Part shown: positions 18,307 to 29,487 of the stretch, one piece after another
Position numbering within the stretch: position 1 is the first letter of the stretch
Layout: the number at the start of each line of letters is the position of its first letter
Assembly: GCA_039961635.1 (NCBI GenBank)
Contig: JABRWB010000056.1
Span: forward strand, 1 to 41,656
Origin: a bacterium
Lineage (GTDB): Bacteria; 4484-113; JAGGVC01
Direction: 5' to 3'
Length of the DNA stretch: 41,656 nt
Made by a program: the position numbers and the translations under genes
The notes under the pieces: generated by a model
Databases searched by the model: none
The model's input: the letters and a program-made list of their open reading frames with translations, nothing else
What the model was told of the DNA's origin: nothing

Positions 18307-18573
18307 ATGGGCGACGTTTATCTTGGAATAGGGCAGCGGGCGATTATGATCGCCCTCGAGCTCGCGCTGCCGATTCTTATCGTTGCGCTGGTGGTCGGAT
18401 TCCTGGTCAGCATCTTCCAAGCCGTCACGAGCATCCAGGAGGCGACGCTGACTTTCATCCCCAAGATAATCGCGGTCGCGATTTCGCTGATCTTTTTCGG
18501 GCCGTGGATGGGCTCGACGATTTACGCCTTCGCAGCCGATCTGTTCGGCAACGCGTGGAGATACATCAGATAA
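18307..18573 (+). CDS. fliQ: FliQ, flagellar export-gate protein
   Basis: 88 residues, the standard length, with two membrane helices (about 15-40 and 52-75) and the family motif FQAVTSIQEATLTFIPKI. It joins FliP and FliR in the export gate. In most operons fliR, flhB and flhA follow; here a CAP-domain gene begins 23 bases later, so those genes must lie elsewhere. Confidence 0.97.
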   Translation: MGDVYLGIGQRAIMIALELALPILIVALVVGFLVSIFQAVTSIQEATLTFIPKIIAVAISLIFFGPWMGSTIYAFAADLFGNAWRYIR

Positions 18574-18596
18574 AACAAGGATACAAGTCACATACC

Positions 18597-19583
18597 GTGA
18601 GAATCCACACACTCAACCGCTTCTTGTTTGCGCTCGCGCTGGCCGCGGCGCTGGTCGCGGGAGGCACATTCGCCTCGCCCGCCCAATCCGAGGACTGGAA
18701 ACAGTACGAGGCTACCGAGGAAGAGCTTCGCACAAAATACGGCACGGCCGAAAACCGCATTTCGCTCGACGAAGCGCGCTCGCTGATGCTAAGCCTTGTA
18801 AACTCGGACAGGGCAAAGTACCAGGGTCTTCCTTCCCTTGAGCCGGATCCGCTGGCCGCGCAGGTCGCCCAGCGGCACGCGGAAGAGATGGCGGAGAACC
18901 GGTACCTCGGCCATTACAACCTGCGCGGAATGAAAGCTCCGCAGCGCTACAACGAAGCGAACGGCACCGACATGGTCATCGAAAACGTGTCCTATTGGGA
19001 AGCGGAATACGACGCGTACATCACGCCGCAGGTGGTCGCGGACATAGAGGCGCGCTGGCTCAAAAGCCCCGGCCACTTCGCCGCGATAATGACGCCGGAA
19101 GCGACCCACCTGGGTTTCGGCATCGCGATTTCCAAATACGGGGAAATCACCGTGATAACGGCCGTCCAGCTTTTCGTCGTGGATCTGTCGGATTTTGCAC
19201 CTTTGCCCGGCAGGATAAGGCGCGGCGACACGGTGAACATCGTGGGGCGGCTGCACAAGGGACTGAAGTTTTTTTACGCCGCGGTCGGTTCGGAGCCGCT
19301 TCCGGTGCAGCGCACGGCGGATTACTTGAATCAGCATCTCGCGCCGTACGACACTCCGGAGCCGTTCGCGGGTTATCTTGACCAGCTTTCGGAGGGGAGG
19401 CGGAAGCTTAACGGGCTGAAAACCTACTTCACGTTCGTGGAAGGCGAAAACGGCTCGGTAAGCGGCCAGGTTACGCTGGACGACGGCTCCGGCAAGCCCA
19501 AGCTGTATTACATTTACCTGTTCGCGAAGCGCGAGGACGGCCAGGTAATATTGGTGATGCAGCAGACGTGCGAAGCGGTCTAG
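18597..19583 (+). CDS. Secreted CAP/SCP-domain protein
   Basis: 328 residues from a GTG at 18597, chosen because it opens directly into a signal peptide (RIHTLNRFLFALALAAALVA, cleavage near FASPAQS). The CAP domain spans about 55-190. It has the expected histidines and glutamates: QRHAEEMAENRYLGHYNLRG, then IENVSY, then WLKSPGHFAAIM and HLGFGIA. The C-terminal 140 residues form a second domain I do not recognise. CAP proteins are extracytoplasmic and mostly of unknown biochemical role in bacteria. The gene follows fliQ by 23 bases and ends one base from the convergent nuoM stop. Confidence 0.88.
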   Translation: MRIHTLNRFLFALALAAALVAGGTFASPAQSEDWKQYEATEEELRTKYGTAENRISLDEARSLMLSLVNSDRAKYQGLPSLEPDPLAAQVAQRHAEEMAENRYLGHYNLRGMKAPQRYNEANGTDMVIENVSYWEAEYDAYITPQVVADIEARWLKSPGHFAAIMTPEATHLGFGIAISKYGEITVITAVQLFVVDLSDFAPLPGRIRRGDTVNIVGRLHKGLKFFYAAVGSEPLPVQRTADYLNQHLAPYDTPEPFAGYLDQLSEGRRKLNGLKTYFTFVEGENGSVSGQVTLDDGSGKPKLYYIYLFAKREDGQVILVMQQTCEAV

Positions 19584-19584
19584 G

Positions 19585-21144
19585 TTAGGCGGCAAGCCGA
19601 GCGCTTATCACCGCGGAAAACTGGCTGAACAAGTTCATGAGAGGCGCGGGATAAACTCCAAGCGCAACCATCAGCACGCCCGCCGGGGCGAGGCTCCACC
19701 ATTCGCGTACGGACATGTCCGAAATCTTGTCCCACCTGGCGTTGGCTTTGCCCAGGAACACGCGCTCGATCATCCACAGCAGGTATCCCGCGGTCAGTAT
19801 CATTCCGATCGCCGCGATTACGGCCATCCACCTGAAGAAGACTATTCCGTTCACGCCGCCGAATACGATCAGGTTTTCCCACACTTCGGGCGCCATGAAC
19901 GTGCCCTTGAGAATCAGGAATTCCCCCCAGAATCCGACCAGTCCGGGGAGTCCTAGCGACGTGAACGCCGCGAGGCTCATCATGCCCGTGTATTGCGGCA
20001 TCTGGTTGTACAAGCCTCCGAAGTCCGCGATGAGCCGCGTGTGCGCCCGGTCGTATATCACGCCGACAAGAAGGAACAGCGCGCCGGTGGACAGGCCGTG
20101 CGCGCACATCTGGAGGATCGCGCCGTTTATTCCGTCCGCGCCCAGCGTCGCGATTCCTAGCGTCATGTATCCCATGTGAGAAACCGAGCTGTACGCGATC
20201 AGCTTTTTCAAGTCCGCCTGCGCCATCGCGACGAGAGCGCCGTAGATGATCGCGATGATGCTGATGAACGCTATCACCGGGCCGAGGTTCTTGGCGATGT
20301 CCGGGAAAGTAGGATACGCGATCCGCAGGAATCCGTACGTTCCCATTTTCAGAAGGACGCCCGCGAGGATGACGCTTATCGCGGTCGGAGCTTCGACATG
20401 CGCGTCCGGAAGCCACGTGTGGAACGGGAACATCGGAACCTTGATCGCGAATCCCAGGAGCAGCCCGATGAAAAGCAAAGTTCTGGGCAGCTCGGTCAGG
20501 TAGAGCAGTCCCACCGAGTTGGCGATTTCGTCAATTTTCCAACTGCCCGCGCCCGCCCATATGAACATCCCGATTATGCAGATGAGCATGAACACGCTGC
20601 CGAAAAGCGTGTACAGAAAGAACTTGATCGCGGCGTATTCCTTTCGCGGCCCGCCCCATATCGCGATGAGGAAGTACATCGGGACGAGCATGATTTCCCA
20701 GAAAATGTAAAAAAGGAAGTAATCGAGGGCGACGAATACGCCAAGCATCGCGAAAACGAGAATGAAGTAAAGGACAAAATATTCCTTCTCGCGGAACGTG
20801 ATCGAGAAGCTGCCGATCATCGCCAGCAGGCAGATGAACGAGGTGAGCAGAAACAGCGGCATCGAAAGCCCGTCGATCCCGATGTAATAGTGGACGCGCA
20901 TGAGCGGTATCCACTCCACGTCGAACTGCCAGTTCATCAGGTCGGGGCTGAAGTTGCGCAGCACCTGGAGCGAAAGGAGAAACGTGAGTATGGAAACGAC
21001 AAGCGAGAATCCCTTGATCACGCGCGGCTTTTCCTTGGGGAAGAAAAGCAGCGCGATCGCGCCGAACAGCGGCAGGAACACCGTCTGGTTCAGCGGATTT
21101 ATGAAAAACAAATACAAAGCGTCAAAGAAGCCGCCTGTTTCCAT
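19585..21144 (-). CDS. nuoM: NuoM, complex I proton-pumping membrane subunit
   Basis: 519 residues from the ATG at 21144 (METGGFFDALYLF), with GGGAG about nine bases upstream and only five bases after nuoL. It is an antiporter-like subunit of about 14 helices. The helix-5 glutamate lies in WEIMLVPMYFLIA, the central lysine in GFAIKVPMFPFHTWLPDAH, and a further lysine pair in AQADLKKLIAYSSVSHMG. It is the last gene of the operon; nuoN does not follow, and the stop faces the CAP gene stop one base away. Confidence 0.97.
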   Translation of the reverse strand: METGGFFDALYLFFINPLNQTVFLPLFGAIALLFFPKEKPRVIKGFSLVVSILTFLLSLQVLRNFSPDLMNWQFDVEWIPLMRVHYYIGIDGLSMPLFLLTSFICLLAMIGSFSITFREKEYFVLYFILVFAMLGVFVALDYFLFYIFWEIMLVPMYFLIAIWGGPRKEYAAIKFFLYTLFGSVFMLICIIGMFIWAGAGSWKIDEIANSVGLLYLTELPRTLLFIGLLLGFAIKVPMFPFHTWLPDAHVEAPTAISVILAGVLLKMGTYGFLRIAYPTFPDIAKNLGPVIAFISIIAIIYGALVAMAQADLKKLIAYSSVSHMGYMTLGIATLGADGINGAILQMCAHGLSTGALFLLVGVIYDRAHTRLIADFGGLYNQMPQYTGMMSLAAFTSLGLPGLVGFWGEFLILKGTFMAPEVWENLIVFGGVNGIVFFRWMAVIAAIGMILTAGYLLWMIERVFLGKANARWDKISDMSVREWWSLAPAGVLMVALGVYPAPLMNLFSQFSAVISARLAA

Positions 21145-21149
21145 TTGCG

Positions 21150-23396
21150 CTAACTCCCTATAGGCGTCATATCGGGCCACACACGGATGTCGAATCCGTA
21201 GCCGATCATGGTGATCACCAAAAGAACAACGATTCCGGCAAGAATAACGAACAGGTAGGTCGCGACGAATCCGCTTTGGACCCGCCTGATTATCCAGTTG
21301 ACCGCAAGCCACATGTACGCAACCGCGTTGACTAGCCCGTCAACCACAACTCTGTCGAACCAGCCGGACAGTATCGAGAACCACCTCGTCAGAGTCGCGG
21401 CGCCGTTGACCGCGAAATCTATGACGTACTGGTCGAAGATGAAAAACGACTTGGCGAGCGACCAGCCCGGCGCGCCGACCCTCCGCACCACGAGCGGCGA
21501 AAGCATCCCGACATAAAAATCGTCGAGGTAATACTTGTTTAGAAGCAAAGTTTTAAGCCAGCCGAATCTCGCCGAAAGCGGCGCGAACGCCTTCGACCTG
21601 CGGACGAAGACCGCCCAGCCGATGCCGAATCCCGCGAACGCCATCAATGTCGAGATTCCGAGCACCGGAAGGTTGTATTCAGGCAGATGCGGATGCGCGA
21701 AAAGCCCGTCCTGCACGAATCCCTGGTACCACGGATTGAGCTTGGGAATCCCCGCGAATCCGAAAAACGCGCCCAGCGTGCCCAGCACCATCAGCGGGAT
21801 GGTCATGTTGAGAGGGCTTTCCTTGGGCAGCGCGCCGTGCGGCGCGTGGTGCTCGTCGTGCGCGTGCTCGTCCTTCGGCGCTTCGTCCCCGCGGTATTTG
21901 TCGCCGAGGAACGTCATCGCGACCAGACGCGTCATATAGAACGCGGTCAGGAACGCCGCGGCCGCGCCGAATACGAACAGCAGCCAGTAAAGCGGTGAGC
22001 GGCCGGACGCCGCCGCGTCCCACACGCTGGCGAGTATCTCGTCCTTGCTCCAGAATCCGGAAAACGGAGGAAGCCCCATAAGCGCGACCGTCGCCAAGGC
22101 GAACGTGACAAACGTGATGGGCATGTATTTGCGGACATTGCCCATGTAGCGCATGTCCTGCTGGTGGTGGCAGCCGATAATCACGCTGCCCGAGCCGAGG
22201 AAGAGGCAAGCCTTGAAGAACGCGTGCGTGATGAGGTGGAACATCGCGCCCACCCATCCCAGCGCGCCGAGGCCGAGAACCATGTATCCGAGCTGCGAAA
22301 TCGTCGAATACGCAAGGACTTTTTTGATGTCGTTCATCACGGTGCCGAGGAGCGCCGCGATGAGCGCGGTGAATCCGCCGATGAACGCGACTATCAAAAG
22401 CGTCGTGTTTGACGCTTGCACAATCGGGTAAACGCGGCCGAGGAGATAAACGCCGGCGGACACCATCGTGGCCGCGTGGATCATCGCGGAGACGGGCGTC
22501 GGGCCTTCCATGGCGTCCGGAAGCCAAACATGCAGCGGGAACTGCGCGCTCTTGCCGACCGTGCCCATGAACAATCCCAGTCCGGCGAGCGTGACCCAGG
22601 TTTTGACAGAGCCTTCCGCCGCGGCGCCAATCGGGAAAGCCGCCCAGATGCGGTCGAAGTCGAAGCTTCCCACGAGGACGAACGTAAGGACGATGCCGAG
22701 GAAGAATCCGACGTCGCCGATGCGCGTCGTGATGAACGCTTTTTTGCAGGCGGCCATCGCGGTTTCCTTTTCGTACCAGAAGCCGATCAGCAGGTAGCTG
22801 CACAGCCCCATCAACTCCCAGAACACGTAAAGGAACAAGAGCCCGCCCGCCATGACCAGCCCCATCATGGACGCCGTGAAAAGACAGATGAACGCGTGAA
22901 AACGCGGGAAGCGCTTGTCGCCGCGCATGTATCCGACGGAATACAGATGTATAAGGAAGCACGTGAGCGACGCCATGAAAAGCACCATCGCCGCGATCCG
23001 GTCGAGCCGGATGTTGTAGCGGATGGCGGTTACCTGCTGGTGGAAGTCGGGATGCAGGTCGAGCGCATGTTCCCCGCCTGCGCCGCCGTGCGAATCAGCG
23101 GCGTGTTCCGGCGACAGCACCGCGCTTTTGATCGCGCGCGCGAACGAAGAATCGGAAATGCCGGACACGCTGGGCAGGTTGAAAAGCTCGATGCTTTCTT
23201 CGTAGATATAGCCGGCCGGCTTGCCCATCATCGCGACGAACGCCATTATTCCGAAGAACGCGGAAATCGCGGTGACGAGCGCGGATAGATTCCCGCTCCA
23301 GCGGTCCTTCAGCACCTTCGAAAAAAACGTGATGAGGACGAACCCCGCGAACGGGAACAGCGGAATGAAAATCGCCTTTTCCAGGAAGAAATCCAT
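21150..23396 (-). CDS. nuoL: NuoL, complex I distal proton-pumping subunit
   Basis: 748 residues, longer than the usual 610-650. Key elements are present: WELMGLCSYLLIGFWY, GTVGKSAQFPLHVWLPDAM, HAATMVSAGVYLLGR and DIKKVLAYSTISQLGYM. Extra length lies in a soluble loop before helix 3 (about 60-115, including His-rich SPEHAADSHGGAGGEH) and in an Asp/His-rich loop near 500 (DEHAHDEHHAPHG). The C-terminal lateral-helix region is kept. GGGAG lies six bases before the ATG, 11 bases after nuoK. Confidence 0.96.
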   Translation of the reverse strand: MDFFLEKAIFIPLFPFAGFVLITFFSKVLKDRWSGNLSALVTAISAFFGIMAFVAMMGKPAGYIYEESIELFNLPSVSGISDSSFARAIKSAVLSPEHAADSHGGAGGEHALDLHPDFHQQVTAIRYNIRLDRIAAMVLFMASLTCFLIHLYSVGYMRGDKRFPRFHAFICLFTASMMGLVMAGGLLFLYVFWELMGLCSYLLIGFWYEKETAMAACKKAFITTRIGDVGFFLGIVLTFVLVGSFDFDRIWAAFPIGAAAEGSVKTWVTLAGLGLFMGTVGKSAQFPLHVWLPDAMEGPTPVSAMIHAATMVSAGVYLLGRVYPIVQASNTTLLIVAFIGGFTALIAALLGTVMNDIKKVLAYSTISQLGYMVLGLGALGWVGAMFHLITHAFFKACLFLGSGSVIIGCHHQQDMRYMGNVRKYMPITFVTFALATVALMGLPPFSGFWSKDEILASVWDAAASGRSPLYWLLFVFGAAAAFLTAFYMTRLVAMTFLGDKYRGDEAPKDEHAHDEHHAPHGALPKESPLNMTIPLMVLGTLGAFFGFAGIPKLNPWYQGFVQDGLFAHPHLPEYNLPVLGISTLMAFAGFGIGWAVFVRRSKAFAPLSARFGWLKTLLLNKYYLDDFYVGMLSPLVVRRVGAPGWSLAKSFFIFDQYVIDFAVNGAATLTRWFSILSGWFDRVVVDGLVNAVAYMWLAVNWIIRRVQSGFVATYLFVILAGIVVLLVITMIGYGFDIRVWPDMTPIGS

Positions 23397-23407: not shown

Positions 23408-23845
23408 TTACCACCTCATCAGGTCTGCGTCTTCGACCATGACCGATTGCCTTATCCTGTAAAACGCCACGATGATCGCCAGCCCGATAGCGGCCTCCGC
23501 GGCCGCGATGATGATTACGAAAATAGCGAAAATCTGCCCGACGGGACTCCATACATCCTCGATGCTGGTGAACGCCGCGCGGGTTTGCTTGAGCCCCCAG
23601 ATGTTGTTGAAAGCGACGAAGTTGATGTTGACCGCGTTGAGCATCAGCTCAAGGCTCATCAGTACGCTGATCGCGTTGCGCCTGACGATTACGCCGAAGA
23701 ATCCGATAGCGAATATCGCCGCCGCGACCAAAAGGTAATGGTGGATCGAAACCGTGGAAAAAACGTACCACGCGTTCTGCAGCGCGTTCTCCGACGTCAT
23801 CGCCGCATCCCAGTTGCGCAGTACGAAAAGCTGATCAGGGCTCAT
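23408..23845 (-). CDS. nuoK: NuoK, complex I membrane subunit, extended
   Basis: 145 residues against about 100 typical. The start at 23845 (MSPDQLFVLRNW) follows GGGAG by five to six bases and overlaps the end of nuoJ. The conserved core begins near residue 34 (HHYLLVAAAIFAIGFFGVI then RRNAISVLMSLELMLNAVN) with the helix-2 glutamate and ends with the AAAEAAIGLAIIVAF helix. The extras are an N-terminal 33 residues and a longer loop between helices 2 and 3 (WGLKQTRAAFTSIEDVW). NuoK links the quinone site to the antiporter subunits. Confidence 0.95.
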   Translation of the reverse strand: MSPDQLFVLRNWDAAMTSENALQNAWYVFSTVSIHHYLLVAAAIFAIGFFGVIVRRNAISVLMSLELMLNAVNINFVAFNNIWGLKQTRAAFTSIEDVWSPVGQIFAIFVIIIAAAEAAIGLAIIVAFYRIRQSVMVEDADLMRW

Positions 23846-24386
23846 GTTTGCTCCCTTCCGGTTTTGCAAGGACTATGCTTCCTATAAGCGCCATCAAAAG
23901 AAGCACGGACGCGATTTCGAACGGCAAAGAATAGGTGGACATAAGCGACCAGCCGACAACCGTCGTGTTGTCGAGCTTCTCCGGAACCTGCGCGAACCAA
24001 GCGGGGATGAACGGAATCATTCCGATTTCCACGAACGAGGTCATTCCCGAAACGAACGCGGTCACTCCGAACAGGATCGCGGACGCGATGGCGCCCGGTA
24101 TCAGGTACGCGTTCGTCTGCACGATGTTGCGCCGCATTATCTTTTGCGACAAAAGGATCGCGAAGATGATGAGCACCATGATCGCGCCGACGTAGATGAC
24201 CACCTGGACCATCGCGAGGAATTCGGCGTTCAGCAGAACGAAGTATCCCGCAATCGCGAACAGGCACACGATCATGGAAAGCGCGCTGTGGAAGATGTTG
24301 CGAAGAAGGACCACGCCGAGCGCGCCCAGCACCGCGAACACGGTGAAAAGCGCAAAGTAAACCGTGACCAGGTTGCTTACCGTCAC
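23835..24386 (-). CDS. nuoJ: NuoJ, complex I membrane subunit
   Basis: 183 residues with about five helices and the NuoJ pattern ALSMIVCLFAIAGYFVLLNAEF then VQVVIYVGAIMVLIIFAIL. It starts with a GTG that overlaps the nuoI stop, and its own end overlaps nuoK by 11 bases, so the run is translationally coupled. NuoJ contributes to the hydrophilic axis between the quinone cavity and the pumping subunits. Confidence 0.95.
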   Translation of the reverse strand: MTVSNLVTVYFALFTVFAVLGALGVVLLRNIFHSALSMIVCLFAIAGYFVLLNAEFLAMVQVVIYVGAIMVLIIFAILLSQKIMRRNIVQTNAYLIPGAIASAILFGVTAFVSGMTSFVEIGMIPFIPAWFAQVPEKLDNTTVVGWSLMSTYSLPFEIASVLLLMALIGSIVLAKPEGSKHEP

Positions 24387-25417
24387 TTGGCCTCCCCCGC
24401 GGCTTCCTTCAGCCGTTTGGTGTTTTCGTAATATTCGCCGAGTATGTCAAGGACGAGGTCGTTGCGCGTGAAGCTTGAATATGCGTATTCGGTTGAATGC
24501 CTTATCGCGCCCGTCGGGCAAACGTCTTCGCACAGCCCGCAGAAGCTGCACCGCGAGTTGTCCAGGATGAAACCGGTAAGCACAAGCTTTTTGGTTTCGG
24601 GATTGCGGACGCTTTCGATCGCGATCAGACGGTCGGGGCAGATCTTCTCGCAGGCCTTGCACGCGATGCAAAGGTGCTCGCCCTTCTCGTCGAACGCAAG
24701 CATGTGCCGGCCGCGGAAAATGGGCGAGAGGTCGGGTTTTTCTTCCGGGTATTGCTCGGTTATCGGCCTGCGCCCGAAGTGGACGAGCGTCACTTTCATT
24801 CCCAGCAGAATCGAGACGAGCATCTCGTGCCACAAAGCGACGTTGCGCGCGAACCTGGTCAGCACCCATGAAAAAGACTCGTATCCCAGCGCGAGCACAA
24901 GGAGGAAAATCGCGAGGTACAGCGCGATCACGCCGAGGTTGATCTCCTCCATTCCCAGCCAGTCCGTTTTTCCCACAATCGAAAAGTTGCTCATCCTCTC
25001 CAGGATGATATTGAACGGATCGATCAAAACGTAACTGACCGCGGACAGCCCGAGAAACCAGAACCAGCGCGCCGCCCTGGGATTGGCGCGCCCCCATTCG
25101 GTCCACGACGTGAAAACGCCCGCCAGAAACCAGTAAAGCGCAAGTAAGGCGGCGGTGAAAATCAACAGAGGAGGCAGAAACAAGGCGAACAGCCCGAACG
25201 TTATCTCGTCGACGTCCAGCGCCTGTCCGTAGAAAACCGCCATCGACGCGTACAGACACCAGAAGAACCCGAATATGACAGCGATCGCGACAACGAGGCC
25301 GCGCGTTGTCGGCAGCACGTTCTCGTGGCGCTCGGACGGATCGAGCCTGTCGAGCACTTCCTCGACTATGCCAACCTTGTGCTTTTCCGGCCGCATTTCG
25401 CGTTCGATGTCAGACAT
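24383..25417 (-). CDS. nuoI: NuoI, complex I 2x[4Fe-4S] subunit with N-terminal membrane domain
   Basis: 344 residues from the ATG at 25417, which overlaps the nuoH stop; GGAGGT lies 13 bases upstream, and an in-frame GTG 15 bases earlier is an alternative. The C-terminal 145 residues are a normal NuoI with two [4Fe-4S] motifs: C250-C253-C256-C260 (CIACKACEKICP) and C290-C293-C296-C300 (CSFCGLCEDVCP). These carry electrons toward NuoB. The N-terminal ~200 residues are unusual: about four hydrophobic helices near 41-63, 74-103, 116-138 and 160-180. Ordinary NuoI is peripheral and about 130-180 residues. The function of the extension is unknown; membrane anchoring or a new subunit contact are inferences. 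Confidence 0.93.
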   Translation of the reverse strand: MSDIEREMRPEKHKVGIVEEVLDRLDPSERHENVLPTTRGLVVAIAVIFGFFWCLYASMAVFYGQALDVDEITFGLFALFLPPLLIFTAALLALYWFLAGVFTSWTEWGRANPRAARWFWFLGLSAVSYVLIDPFNIILERMSNFSIVGKTDWLGMEEINLGVIALYLAIFLLVLALGYESFSWVLTRFARNVALWHEMLVSILLGMKVTLVHFGRRPITEQYPEEKPDLSPIFRGRHMLAFDEKGEHLCIACKACEKICPDRLIAIESVRNPETKKLVLTGFILDNSRCSFCGLCEDVCPTGAIRHSTEYAYSSFTRNDLVLDILGEYYENTKRLKEAAGEAK

Positions 25418-26873
25418 GCGCTGGATGCTCACCTCCGGAGGAGGCGCGCCACTGCGCCTCGAGCGCAATGGACCGCTTTATCCCCCTCTTCACCTTTATA
25501 AGCGTGTAAATTATTCCCCACGCGAAGAGAAGCACGAAAATCGAATAAATAACGAAGAACAGCTTGCCGGAATACGGCAACGCGTCGTAAGCCTCCAGGT
25601 ACCACGCCCATTTGAGGACGCCGGGGCCTTCAAGCTCCTTCACTTGGAACGGCCGGAATCCGGGTTCTTCCACAGCGGTCTCGCCGACCGTCCTTACGCT
25701 TGTTCCGATGGAATGCTCCGCCGAAATGGAATGGCTGGAAATCACCGAGCTCCCAAGGTACCACGGATGCTGGTAAACCATTCCGAGTCCGACGATCGTC
25801 ATATGAAGGATTGAAACCGGAACGAGAAACTTCCACGCGAATCCCATCAGCTGGTCGACGCGGAATCTGGGAAGCGTCGCGCGCAGCCAGATGAAGACGA
25901 ACACCATCAGGTAGGTTTTGAGGAAAAACCAAAACAGGCTGGTGAACCACAGCCCGCCGTAGCCGAGGAACATCGGCCCTTTCCATCCGCCCAGGAAGCA
26001 CGTCGTCACTATCGCGCTCACGACGAAAACGTTCGTGTATTCCGCAAGAAAGAACAGCGCGAACTTCATTCCGCTGTACTCGATGTGGAATCCCGCGACG
26101 AGCTCGCTTTCGGCCTCCGGCAGGTCGAACGGGCTGCGGTTCGTTTCGGCCACTCCGCATATCAGGTAAATCAGAAATCCGGCAAACTGCGGAATCAAAT
26201 TCCAAATCAATGTCTGGCTGTGCACGATGTCCACGAGCGAAGTCGAGCCGGCCGTCATCACGACTCCGATAAGCGCGACGACCATCGGCACTTCGTAGCT
26301 GATTATCTGGGCTGCGTTTCGCACCGCGCTTATCAGCGCGTATTTGTTGTTCGAGCCCCAGCCCGCCATTATGAATCCGATGAGCGCGACCGAAGATACC
26401 GCGAGCAAATAAAGCACGCCGACGTTGAGGTCTTTTACGATGAAAACGTGATACTTGCCGCCGGCGATCGCCGCGCCGTACGGAATCACGACGAACGCCA
26501 TGAGCGCGGGTACGAACACCGCGAACGGCGCGACGTTGTAAACGACCGGATCCGCCGAAAGCGGCATTATGTCTTCTTTCTGAAGAAGCTTCAGCGCGTC
26601 GGCTATCGTTTGAAGCAGTCCCTGCGGGCCGACGCGGTTCGGGCCGAGCCTGAGCTGGAAAAATCCGATGATGCGCCGCTCGAAAAGGACGACGAAAAGA
26701 ACCGTAACCACGATGAACAGGACGACGACGAGAAACGCGACGAACTGGTTGACGCCGCCCGCCCACGCCGCCGCGGCGTCCGGCGGCATCCCCCAGCCGG
26801 TGAACACCGACACCAGCCACGCGTAAAACGCGTCCAGGATGCTGTTGTGCGGCGCGGCGCCGAGTGGGTTCAT
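25410..26873 (-). CDS. nuoH: NuoH, complex I quinone-site membrane subunit, extended
   Basis: 487 residues against about 320-350 typical. The start at 26873 (MNPLGAAPHN) overlaps the nuoD stop as ATGA. The core is standard: ERRIIGFFQLRLGPNRVGP (65-83), VAETNRSPFDLPEAESELVAG (about 241-261) and LRATLPRFRVDQLM (330-343). Beyond residue about 372 there are 115 extra residues: a soluble stretch, then a further membrane helix at about 437-460 and a basic tail. NuoH forms the quinone channel with NuoB and NuoD. Confidence 0.95.
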   Translation of the reverse strand: MNPLGAAPHNSILDAFYAWLVSVFTGWGMPPDAAAAWAGGVNQFVAFLVVVLFIVVTVLFVVLFERRIIGFFQLRLGPNRVGPQGLLQTIADALKLLQKEDIMPLSADPVVYNVAPFAVFVPALMAFVVIPYGAAIAGGKYHVFIVKDLNVGVLYLLAVSSVALIGFIMAGWGSNNKYALISAVRNAAQIISYEVPMVVALIGVVMTAGSTSLVDIVHSQTLIWNLIPQFAGFLIYLICGVAETNRSPFDLPEAESELVAGFHIEYSGMKFALFFLAEYTNVFVVSAIVTTCFLGGWKGPMFLGYGGLWFTSLFWFFLKTYLMVFVFIWLRATLPRFRVDQLMGFAWKFLVPVSILHMTIVGLGMVYQHPWYLGSSVISSHSISAEHSIGTSVRTVGETAVEEPGFRPFQVKELEGPGVLKWAWYLEAYDALPYSGKLFFVIYSIFVLLFAWGIIYTLIKVKRGIKRSIALEAQWRASSGGEHPAHV

Positions 26874-28018
26874 CTGTCCACGTCCCCCAGTACGATGTCC
26901 ACGCCGCCGAGTATCGCGATAAGATCGCCGATCATGTATCCCAGCGTCAGCTCCTCGATTGCGGAAAGGTTGACGAAAGAAGGCGCGCGCAGGTGGAACC
27001 GCCAGGGCTTTTTGGCTTTGTCCTCGCTCGTCACCATGAATCCGCCAAGCTCGCCTCGCGGGCTTTCGATGCGCCGGTAGGTCATCCCCTGTTTGCACTT
27101 GATGGACACCGGAACCTTTGCGGTGTACGGCCCTTCCGGCAGCCCTTCGACGGCCTGCTTGAGAATCCTGTTTGACTGGCGCATCTCCATCATCCGGACT
27201 CGGTATCGCGCCATCACGTCGCAGCCGCTATCCACCGCGCGGTCGAAAGTGAAATCGGGATACGCGCAGTACGGCTCGTCTATGCGAAGATCCCAGGCGA
27301 CGCCGCTTCCGCGCAGCATCGGGCCGGAGAGCCCCCAGTTTATAGCGCGCTCCGCGCTCATCACACCGACGCTCGTCACGCGCTCCACGAAAATCGCGTT
27401 GCCCGTGACAAGCTCCTCGTATTCGTCCATATATTTCGGAAACGTCTCGGTGAATTTCGCAAGGCGCTTCATAAACTCCGGCGTCACATCCGCGCGCACG
27501 CCGCCCGGCCGGATGTAGTTGAACAAAAGCCGCGCTCCGGTCACGAGCTCGAACATGTCGCAGATGTCCTCGCGCTCGCGGAACGCGTAGAACATCGGCG
27601 TCGTCGCGCCGAGGTCGAGCAGGAACGTCCCCCACCACAAAAGGTGGGACGAAATCCGGTTGAGCTCCATCATGATCACGCGGATCCACTCGGCGCGCTT
27701 GGTCGGCTCGATTTCGGCCAGCTCTTCGGCGCACGCGGTCATGATGTAGCTGTTGAACATGCTAGACAGGTAATCCGCGCGGTCGAGCAACGGAATGCCC
27801 TGCAAAAACTCTTTCGATTCGAGGTTCTTTTCGATTCCGCGGTGCAGGTAGCCCAGGTGGGAGTCCACGCACGTGATGACCTCGCCGTTCGCCTTGACTT
27901 CGAGGCGCAGAACGCCGTGCGTGGATGGATGCTGCGGGCCGAAGTTGATCGTCAGCTCGTCGGTCGCGAGCGAGTCGGTGCGCCTGCGCAGCGTTTCGGT
28001 GGTGAACCGGTGCGTCAT
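26870..28018 (-). CDS. nuoD: NuoD, complex I 49-kDa-type subunit
   Basis: 382 residues. It has NINFGPQHPSTHGVLR-type quinone-pocket sequence near the N-terminus (INFGPQHPSTHGVLRLEV), then DSHLGYLHRGIEKNLE, and the C-terminal D-x-x-x-G-x-x-D region (ILGGVDIVLGDVDR). NuoD and NuoB bound the quinone headgroup. NuoC is a separate gene here, overlapping by an ATGA. The stop overlaps nuoH. Confidence 0.97.
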   Translation of the reverse strand: MTHRFTTETLRRRTDSLATDELTINFGPQHPSTHGVLRLEVKANGEVITCVDSHLGYLHRGIEKNLESKEFLQGIPLLDRADYLSSMFNSYIMTACAEELAEIEPTKRAEWIRVIMMELNRISSHLLWWGTFLLDLGATTPMFYAFREREDICDMFELVTGARLLFNYIRPGGVRADVTPEFMKRLAKFTETFPKYMDEYEELVTGNAIFVERVTSVGVMSAERAINWGLSGPMLRGSGVAWDLRIDEPYCAYPDFTFDRAVDSGCDVMARYRVRMMEMRQSNRILKQAVEGLPEGPYTAKVPVSIKCKQGMTYRRIESPRGELGGFMVTSEDKAKKPWRFHLRAPSFVNLSAIEELTLGYMIGDLIAILGGVDIVLGDVDR

Positions 28019-28575
28019 TCGGCGTCCTCCCCGGCCTTCGCCTTTCCCTTGCCGTCGCCCGAAAGCGCCTTGAGCATCTCCTCCTCGCGTTCTTTCAGGT
28101 TGCGGATGTTCATCGCAGGGTCAAGCTGGTAACTCTTGCGCAGCGGGTGGAAATCGCACGAATCCTCCATCAGTATTCTGCGCAAATCCGGATGCCCGGT
28201 GAACCGGACGCCGAACATATCGAAAACTTCGCGCTCCTGCCAGTCGGCCGAGCTGAACGCGTTCGCGAGCGACGGAACTTCGAGCGCGCCCTCGTCAAGG
28301 GGAACGTAAATTGCAAGCGTGTGCTTGTGCAGCAGGCTGGTGAAGTGGTAAACCATCATCACGCCCGGCGCGTCAAAACGCTCGTACGCCGTAACGTTGC
28401 GCAAATAGGTCAGGTCGAGTGCCGGGTCGGCCGCAAGAGCTTCCACAACGGACAACAGTTGTTCGGGCTTAAGCGCAAGCGAGCTTGCCTCCGCGTCGAA
28501 CTGCGCGCCCGCCGGCAGGATCTTCACGATCCTGTCTTGCCCTTCACCGGCAATCGCAAATCCCTGAATCGCCAA
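28015..28575 (-). CDS. nuoC: NuoC, complex I 30-kDa-type subunit
   Basis: 186 residues from a TTG at 28575, ten bases after the nuoB stop; no convincing Shine-Dalgarno precedes it. The conserved signature is DWQEREVFDMFGVRFTGHP then RRILMEDSCDFHPLRKSYQL. The C-terminal 20 residues are Lys/Gly/Glu-rich. It is a structural subunit of the peripheral arm that packs on NuoD. Its stop overlaps the nuoD start. Confidence 0.95.
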   Translation of the reverse strand: MAIQGFAIAGEGQDRIVKILPAGAQFDAEASSLALKPEQLLSVVEALAADPALDLTYLRNVTAYERFDAPGVMMVYHFTSLLHKHTLAIYVPLDEGALEVPSLANAFSSADWQEREVFDMFGVRFTGHPDLRRILMEDSCDFHPLRKSYQLDPAMNIRNLKEREEEMLKALSGDGKGKAKAGEDAE

Positions 28576-28585
28576 TACAATCGGC

Positions 28586-29101
28586 CTACTTGTTCGCCAG
28601 AATGAACCGCTCCGAGTCCTTCCGGAACGATTCCTGCTTCATCTTGCGCTGCACCATCAATATTCCGTCGAAAAGCGCCTCGGGGCGCGGCGGGCAGCCG
28701 GGCACGTATACGTCCACCGGGATGATCTTGTCTATCCCGCGCAGGACGCTGTAGCTGTCCCCGTGTATCCCGCCGCTTATCGCGCAGCTTCCCATCGCGA
28801 TCACGTACTTGGGATCGGGCATCTGCTCGTAGAGCTTTTTCACCCTTCCCGCCATCTTGTAAGTCACCGTTCCCGCAACGATCATCAAATCGCTCTGCCG
28901 CGGGGAGGGGCGGAACACCTCGCTTCCGAACCGCGCGATGTCGAACCGCGCGGCCGAGCTGCATATCATCTCGATCGCGCAGCATGCCAGCCCCATCGTG
29001 AGCGGCCAGACCGAGTTGCCGCGCCCCCAGTTGAGCGCGGCCTCGACCGTGGTCAACACCACGTTATCTTCCGACGCTTTCACGCCGTCGATCAGACCCA
29101 T
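28586..29101 (-). CDS. nuoB: NuoB, complex I N2-cluster subunit
   Basis: 171 residues from the ATG at 29101, overlapping the nuoA end by ten bases. It binds the terminal [4Fe-4S] cluster N2 that reduces quinone. The ligands are visible as the tandem C40-C41 (LACCAIEM), C105 ([10 protein letters not shown]) and C135 ([11 protein letters not shown]). The frame is open farther upstream but that part lies inside nuoA. Confidence 0.97.
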
Positions 29102-29487
29102 TCGAACGCACCTTCTTTGTAGGCGAACCACCACGCAAGCAAGAGCAGCGCAAGGAAAAGCGCCATCTCGCCGAACGCGGGGAAGCCCAAAGCCTGGAAA
29201 TAATCCGGCTCGATTCCGTACAAAAGTATCCGGTAAGCGGACGCCCACGGAAAGATGAACACGACGTCCACGTCGAAAACGAGGTAAACGATCGCCAGGA
29301 CGTAAAACCGCGGGTTGAACTTGCCCCACGCCTGGCCCTGCGGCTCTTCGCCGCATTCGTACGTTGTGAGTTTGGAGAGCGCGATCCGGCTGGGCCGGAT
29401 AATCCACGCGACCAGCAGCGCGACGCCCGTGAAGGCGATTCCCGCGAGCAGGAACAGCGCTACCCAGTTGTAGTCCTGATAAGGCAA
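29092..29487 (-). CDS. nuoA: NuoA, complex I membrane subunit
   Basis: 131 residues with three membrane helices. The conserved loop is [14 protein letters not shown] then [21 protein letters not shown], including the acidic pair in helix 2. The start is a TTG at 29487 with GGAG about five bases upstream. It is the first gene of the complex I operon, with a promoter and a palindromic site in the 244 bases before it. Confidence 0.95.

Follow-up and report, generated by a model that had tools for sequence, protein, structure and literature searches.

Introduction

Cyanobacterial and chloroplast NDH-1 complexes are built without NuoE, NuoF and NuoG, and in cyanobacteria the ndhB gene lies apart from the other ndh genes. 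Further EFG-less complexes with unknown electron donors have been described, e.g., the 11-subunit complex I-like enzyme of Desulfitobacterium hafniense (PMC11238625, accessible part of the report). Gene sets for complex I that are split over the genome are known and common (PMC12361115, likewise as far as the accessible text goes). In the Ehr complexes, finally, the Ni/Fe ligands have been lost and the antiporter-like subunits kept (PMC6349859, accessible part).

The nuo operon analysed here lies in a 41,656-nucleotide stretch of bacterial DNA, in the following called the window. It resembles the 11-subunit enzymes in that a NuoA-D,H-N set occurs without NuoEFG and the donor is undefined, and the ligands of its Q module are intact. 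As far as the accessible part of PMC11238625 allows the comparison, it differs from them in the following: (i) nuoN is placed apart from the operon, among secretin/pilus genes; (ii) NuoI is extended by a membrane domain of several helices; (iii) the genome holds a second nuo operon with nuoF. Probably, the window operon belongs to a second, EFG-less complex I that obtains its NuoN from another contig, C25, and in which NuoL, NuoM and this orphan NuoN all assemble, the genes being split and nothing being lost from the pump.

The nuo operon in the window

We refer to the window operon as type 2 and to a separate nuo run on contig C31 of the same genome as type 1. The type 2 genes are packed tightly on the minus strand from 29487 to 19585 in the order nuoA, B, C, D, H, I, J, K, L, M (Table 1), and B, C, D, H, I, J, K, L and M matched NCBIfam nuo models in a profile search. 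Neither the open reading frames nor the profile models revealed nuoN, nuoE, nuoF or nuoG within this run. The run thus encodes NuoA, B, C, D, H, I, J, K, L and M, as in the 11-subunit EFG-less enzymes, and it lacks the nuoEFG genes that a 14-subunit NADH dehydrogenase has in the same operon. The original prediction had described a contiguous nuoABCDHIJKLM without nuoN, and a locus that leaves the electron donor undefined by the absence of nuoE, F and G; both descriptions are borne out.

The stop codon of nuoM (19585) is one base from the end (19583) of a converging gene, as had been noted, but this gene encodes a CAP-domain protein (PF00188) and is not part of the flagellar cluster to which it had been assigned; the flagellar run lies just beyond, its last open reading frame (18307-18573) being presumably fliQ-like. 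A CAP-like gene was recognized by eye at the same place after nuoM in one related genome (G001, L098:3804-4814).

Table 1. Coordinates of the type 2 nuo genes, their neighbour in the window and related loci; entries with a contig or locus handle lie outside the window
Feature	Coordinates	Strand	Remarks
nuoM (type 2)	19585..21144	(-)	519 aa; ATG to TAA; last gene of the run; TIGR01972 NDH_I_M, 561.9 bits
nuoL (type 2)	21150..23396	(-)	748 aa; NF005141, 603.7 bits
nuoK (type 2)	23408..23845	(-)	145 aa from ATG; TTG upstream at 23869; NuoK models
nuoJ (type 2)	23835..24386	(-)	183 aa; NuoJ models
nuoI (type 2)	24383..25417	(-)	344 aa from ATG, or 361 aa from TTG at 25468
nuoH (type 2)	25410..26873	(-)	487 aa; C-terminal extension; NuoH models; start inferred
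nuoD (type 2)	26870..28018	(-)	382 aa; quinone-site His/His/Tyr motif present
nuoC (type 2)	28015..28575	(-)	186 aa; TIGR01961
nuoB (type 2)	28586..29101	(-)	171 aa; NuoB models; 4/4 N2 cysteines
nuoA (type 2)	29092..29487	(-)	131 aa; from open reading frame and homologues in relatives
CAP-domain gene (neighbour, outside the complex)	18504..19583	(+)	359-aa open reading frame, start uncertain; PF00188, E 5.5e-13
Orphan nuoN	G000:C25:26640-28301		554 aa, intact; best model TIGR01770
Secretin, PilM-PilN fusion, two genes, nuoN, Wzy_C run	L010:669-11322		Conserved
Family f2 type 2 NuoB without Fe-S cysteines	L103:17102-17605; L119		
Family f2 type 2 NuoI without Fe-S cysteines	L103:11172-12173; L104:7490-8500; L105:7949-8968		

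An orphan nuoN and its neighbourhood

The genome that contains the window (G000; 2.78 Mb in 100 contigs, 96.2% complete) has exactly six Proton_antipo_M genes: L and M of the window, L, M and N of the type 1 run and a single gene on C25. The last of these is a full-length nuoN: its best model is TIGR01770 NDH_I_N (331.6 bits, E 8.9e-99, one bit below the curated cut-off of 332.6) vs 121.2 bits for NDH_I_M, and its closest solved relatives (E 2.7e-64) are the NdhB chains of chloroplast and cyanobacterial NDH-1, followed by bacterial NuoN. NDH-1 also shares the lack of EFG; L, M and D of the window, on the other hand, score far better with Nuo-type models. The orphan retains the TM5 glutamate and the TM7, TM8 and TM12 lysines in all nine rows of the alignment, and the channel Glu/Lys residues are likewise present in L and M of the window.

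The genome thus encodes a second NuoN beside that of the type 1 operon, and the search of the remaining contigs that had been proposed as a check overturns the claim that NuoN is missing and one antiporter-like channel lost. A genuine loss, with altered pumping stoichiometry, would agree with a window run that has no nuoN; with an intact nuoN elsewhere in this genome and in nine of ten genomes of the class, we regard it as very improbable. Read from the operon only, the complex would be called deficient, and since NuoN is supplied from elsewhere, the gene content of an operon is no guide to the stoichiometry of pumping.

The class sample comprised ten genomes, including that of the window, from four families (f1-f4). 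All ten carry a window-type nuoM, told apart from the type 1 copies by a tree, and in the loci that were read, several of which lie on contigs ending soon after, the open reading frame lists contain no nuoN following it. The orphan NuoN occurs in nine genomes (self, then 72, 56, 56, 50, 50, 48, 49 and 48% identity), each of which also has a type 2 operon without N. The exception, G009, has the type 2 operon, and neither nuoN nor the PilM-PilN locus was found there; this says little about nuoN, because the assembly is 77% complete and the PilM-PilN locus is missing from it as well.

The neighbourhood of the orphan is conserved, too. In the window's genome, the order is a secretin (PF00263), a PilM+PilN fusion (PF11104, PF05137), two genes, nuoN and a Wzy_C gene (PF04932), and G005 has the same domains in the same order. 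The long PilM-PilN gene shares a contig with nuoN, two to four genes apart, in 7/7 genomes with sufficient contigs (in G003 and G008, outside this count, the contigs end between the two). A large gene follows nuoN at a distance of -1 to 31 bases in all eight cases measured; it is Wzy_C by Pfam in the four that were scanned (G000, G004, G005 and G007), and a similar-sized gene is in place in the other five. For the two genes between the PilM-PilN fusion and nuoN, which encode 276 and 273 aa, no match to a family is firm.

The separation of nuoM and nuoN might be ascribed to misassembly, the two genes being adjacent in the chromosome, and a metagenome-assembled genome in 100 contigs gives some room for this. 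However, several independent assemblies from different families show this break again, together with an identical setting of nuoN, and nuoM is followed by the CAP gene and flagellar genes in the window and by a CAP gene in G001 as well, which makes an artefact scarcely credible. The comparison of synteny in relatives that had been suggested thus shows one and the same split, with one nuoN neighbourhood, across families.

Trees were calculated for L+M, for J+K+L+M and for NuoN only. The type 2 sequences form one clade (support 100); in the first two trees, f3 groups with f2 (100) and f1 with f4 (100 and 99), and the NuoN-only tree recovers the same family groups as L+M, its two deep joins being weak (35 and 45). 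As part of the reading preferred here, and with the same good confidence, the split would predate the class, the genes having been separate already in its common ancestor.

Gene content points to a partnership of the orphan NuoN with the type 2 complex. Points against it are the weak deep joins of the NuoN tree (vs 100 and 100 with L+M), the type 2 operon of G009 without a nuoN and the score of the orphan just short of the NuoN cut-off. An alternative role is suggested by its location: NuoN may be a stand-alone ion channel for the secretin/pilus/Wzy_C machinery, the type 2 complex using L and M only or the NuoN of C31. The constancy of the PilM-PilN and large downstream genes beside nuoN speaks for this idea, as does the persistence of the linkage in family f2, where the complex looks redox-free (see below). 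On the other hand, the orphan is a full NuoN/NdhB by both the profile and the solved-structure search, its four channel residues are kept, and the type 2 operon without N is found in every genome that bears it. We know of no one-channel pilus motor of this family. Such a role is therefore improbable in our view, though less so than a loss of NuoN. With nuoN relocated and not lost, three features still stand out: its place in the secretin/PilM-PilN/Wzy_C locus throughout the class, the membrane domain fused to NuoI and the relatives that look redox-free. In the literature, which was covered in part, we recognized no report of nuoN with pilus genes.

The type 1 operon and the electron donor

The run on C31 comprises L, M, N, D, F, H and B genes separate from those of the window. 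Its M and N genes overlap by 4 bases in the window's genome and are adjacent in 8/8 genomes measured (gap -71 to 0); the C31 operon is therefore already provided with an N of its own. Three NuoF-family matches exist in the genome, one each in the C31 operon and on contigs C13 and C27, and none of them shows the donor to the window complex. The search for nuoEFG that had been advised accordingly succeeded in part: a nuoF exists, but it belongs to an operon that has an L, M and N set to itself and thus does not tell what feeds electrons into the window complex. The neighbours on C27, labelled by eye, we take to be heterodisulfide-reductase and [NiFe]-hydrogenase genes. A NuoE/NuoF pair among HdrB/HdrC-like and [NiFe]-hydrogenase genes (L013:3795-13392, labels by eye) is possibly a module for electron input that has no connection with the window operon.

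Redox ligands and the membrane extension of NuoI

In the window copy, the residues that in complex I bind clusters N2 and N6a/N6b and form the quinone site are all in place: NuoB has all four N2 cysteines, NuoI has both CxxCxxCxxxCP motifs with 8/8 cluster cysteines, and NuoD has kept QHPSTHG and the DY motif. Because these motifs are complete, the window complex looks redox-competent, as judged from sequence.

The unusual feature of NuoI is a stretch of ~200 residues with four hydrophobic segments, by a hydropathy count, fused ahead of the 2x[4Fe-4S] domain. TIGR01971 aligns to residues 223-341 of the 361-aa form, and the N-terminal membrane domain has no family match (gene taken as window 24383-25468). 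Type 2 NuoI measures 333-364 aa in the nine genomes read vs 162-200 aa for most type 1 copies, and has two to four hydrophobic segments before the ferredoxin-like part; this simple count is rough, since one of the four segments counted in G009 lies inside the soluble part.

The type 2 complex might operate in the following manner: The Q module would be encoded by the window operon, as would the greater part of the P module, and NuoN would be supplied from the separate C25 locus within the secretin/PilM-PilN/Wzy_C run. Since the cluster ligands and quinone-site residues are present in the window lineage, electrons most likely come either from a ferredoxin-like carrier of low potential, such as has been proposed for other 11-subunit enzymes, or from a docked dehydrogenase, and would pass via N6a/N6b and N2 to the quinone. 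Quinone reduction may then drive proton pumping through L, M and the orphan N.

Relatives without Fe-S ligands

In family f2, the ligands of the type 2 complex have disappeared. In the three genomes where the genes are readable (G002, G005 and G007; in G008, outside these counts, the contig ends before nuoB and nuoI), GLACCAIE of NuoB is replaced by GLDYATLE or GLDYTTLE, the third ligand is Gly or Ser and the fourth Asp, so that 0/4 cysteines are left, and the protein is still plainly NuoB (PRK06411, 162.6 bits). NuoI has 1, 2 and 2 cysteines in total and 0/8 motif cysteines in each of the three; it has no Pfam or NCBIfam match in G005 and no Pfam match in G007. In NuoD of all three, DY has become EW and THG has become LPA, LPS or LVS, whereby the quinone-site tyrosine (now Trp) and the second histidine are lost. 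The three genomes thus lack the N2 and N6a/N6b ligands and the NuoD residues of a redox-active complex I. A frameshift or an error in a single genome was rejected as a cause of the cysteine loss (three genomes in three genera, NuoB 56-67% identical), as was an intact third copy: G002, G005, G007 and G008 have only two NuoM-type loci each.

The type 1 NuoB of f2 has kept the cysteine pair and the fourth cysteine where read (G002; G005, G007 and G008 by pattern), and the loss is therefore specific to type 2. Family f3 (G003) looks like an intermediate state: its NuoI (L106:10205-11269) has four cysteines in total, 1/4 in the first motif and 3/4 in the second; its type 2 NuoB was looked for and not found. 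As the trees group f3 with f2, ligand loss would fit one series of steps along the f2+f3 branch, the long f3 branch calling for caution.

Outside the class, 289 genomes were searched with the NuoB of G005. Among the best-scoring 23 loci, the cysteine pair and the third cysteine are present in 23/23 and the fourth was read in 18/23; no second Cys-less lineage appears among these 23, and weaker matches may differ. In the literature, as far as it was covered, we recognized no account of a complex I devoid of Fe-S ligands.

The antiporter-like subunits of f2, on the contrary, have kept the residues with channel roles in complex I. In 4/4 f2 genomes and in f3, NuoL, NuoM and the orphan NuoN all retain the TM5 Glu, the TM7 Lys, the Lys of the TM8 region and the TM12 Lys/Glu; two points from f3 speak against this picture, the NuoL alignment being ragged at the TM12 end and NuoJ having Phe in place of the Tyr of the others. 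Both glutamates of NuoK occur in 13/13 rows; in NuoH, the Glu-rich loop can be recognized wherever a row covers it.

The pn/ps values, simple Nei-Gojobori-style proportions from GC-rich genomes and hence indicative only, are below 1 throughout for f2 type 2: 0.23 (J), 0.38 (K), 0.55 (L), 0.29 (M) and 0.19 (N) for G007/G008, and 0.46 (J) to 0.75 (L) for G007/G005. The type 1 control for G007/G005 gave 0.30 (B), 0.36 (D), 0.46 (H), 0.43 (K), 0.52 (M) and 0.61 (N), compared with type 2 values of 0.57 for B, 0.56 for D and 0.48 for N. B and D exceed their type 1 counterparts, and constraint on them is therefore relaxed, which counts against a redox-free machine; constraint on type 2 N, in the same indicative sense, appears at least as strong as on type 1 N.

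On balance, we find the following proposal about evenly poised between right and wrong: the f2 type 2 complex has shed its Fe-S clusters and quinone chemistry, is still made and moves ions, possibly as a pmf-driven or antiporter-like, redox-free assembly; it may power or regulate an envelope process, NuoN being tied to the secretin/PilM-PilN/Wzy_C locus, and the ancestral, redox-competent state would be that of the window lineage. With redox chemistry gone, the complex could translocate ions or use the pmf for conformational work. Such putative redox-free translocation by NuoL/M/N-like subunits would be comparable to that of Mrp antiporters and DAB complexes; these are not known to have any of B, C, D, H and I, whereas f2 keeps all five as proteins. 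The nearest precedent that we found is Ehr, which resembles f2 in having lost metal-coordinating residues and kept antiporter-like subunits, and differs, as judged from the accessible part of PMC6349859, in that f2 has lost Fe-S ligands of NuoB and NuoI and derives from a true complex I operon.

How energy is transferred from the quinone site to antiporter subunits ~200 Å away is an old question for complex I. If the proposal is true, f2 would be a natural uncoupling experiment, with channels kept and redox centres lost, and the f3 intermediate together with the intact, ancestor-like forms of f1 and f4 could help to separate residues kept for conduction from those kept for coupling.

Family f2 has an extra small gene of 153-162 aa between nuoH and nuoI, without a Pfam match (L103:12201-12689, L104:7051-7512), and its NuoH carries a long insertion past the first conserved loop.
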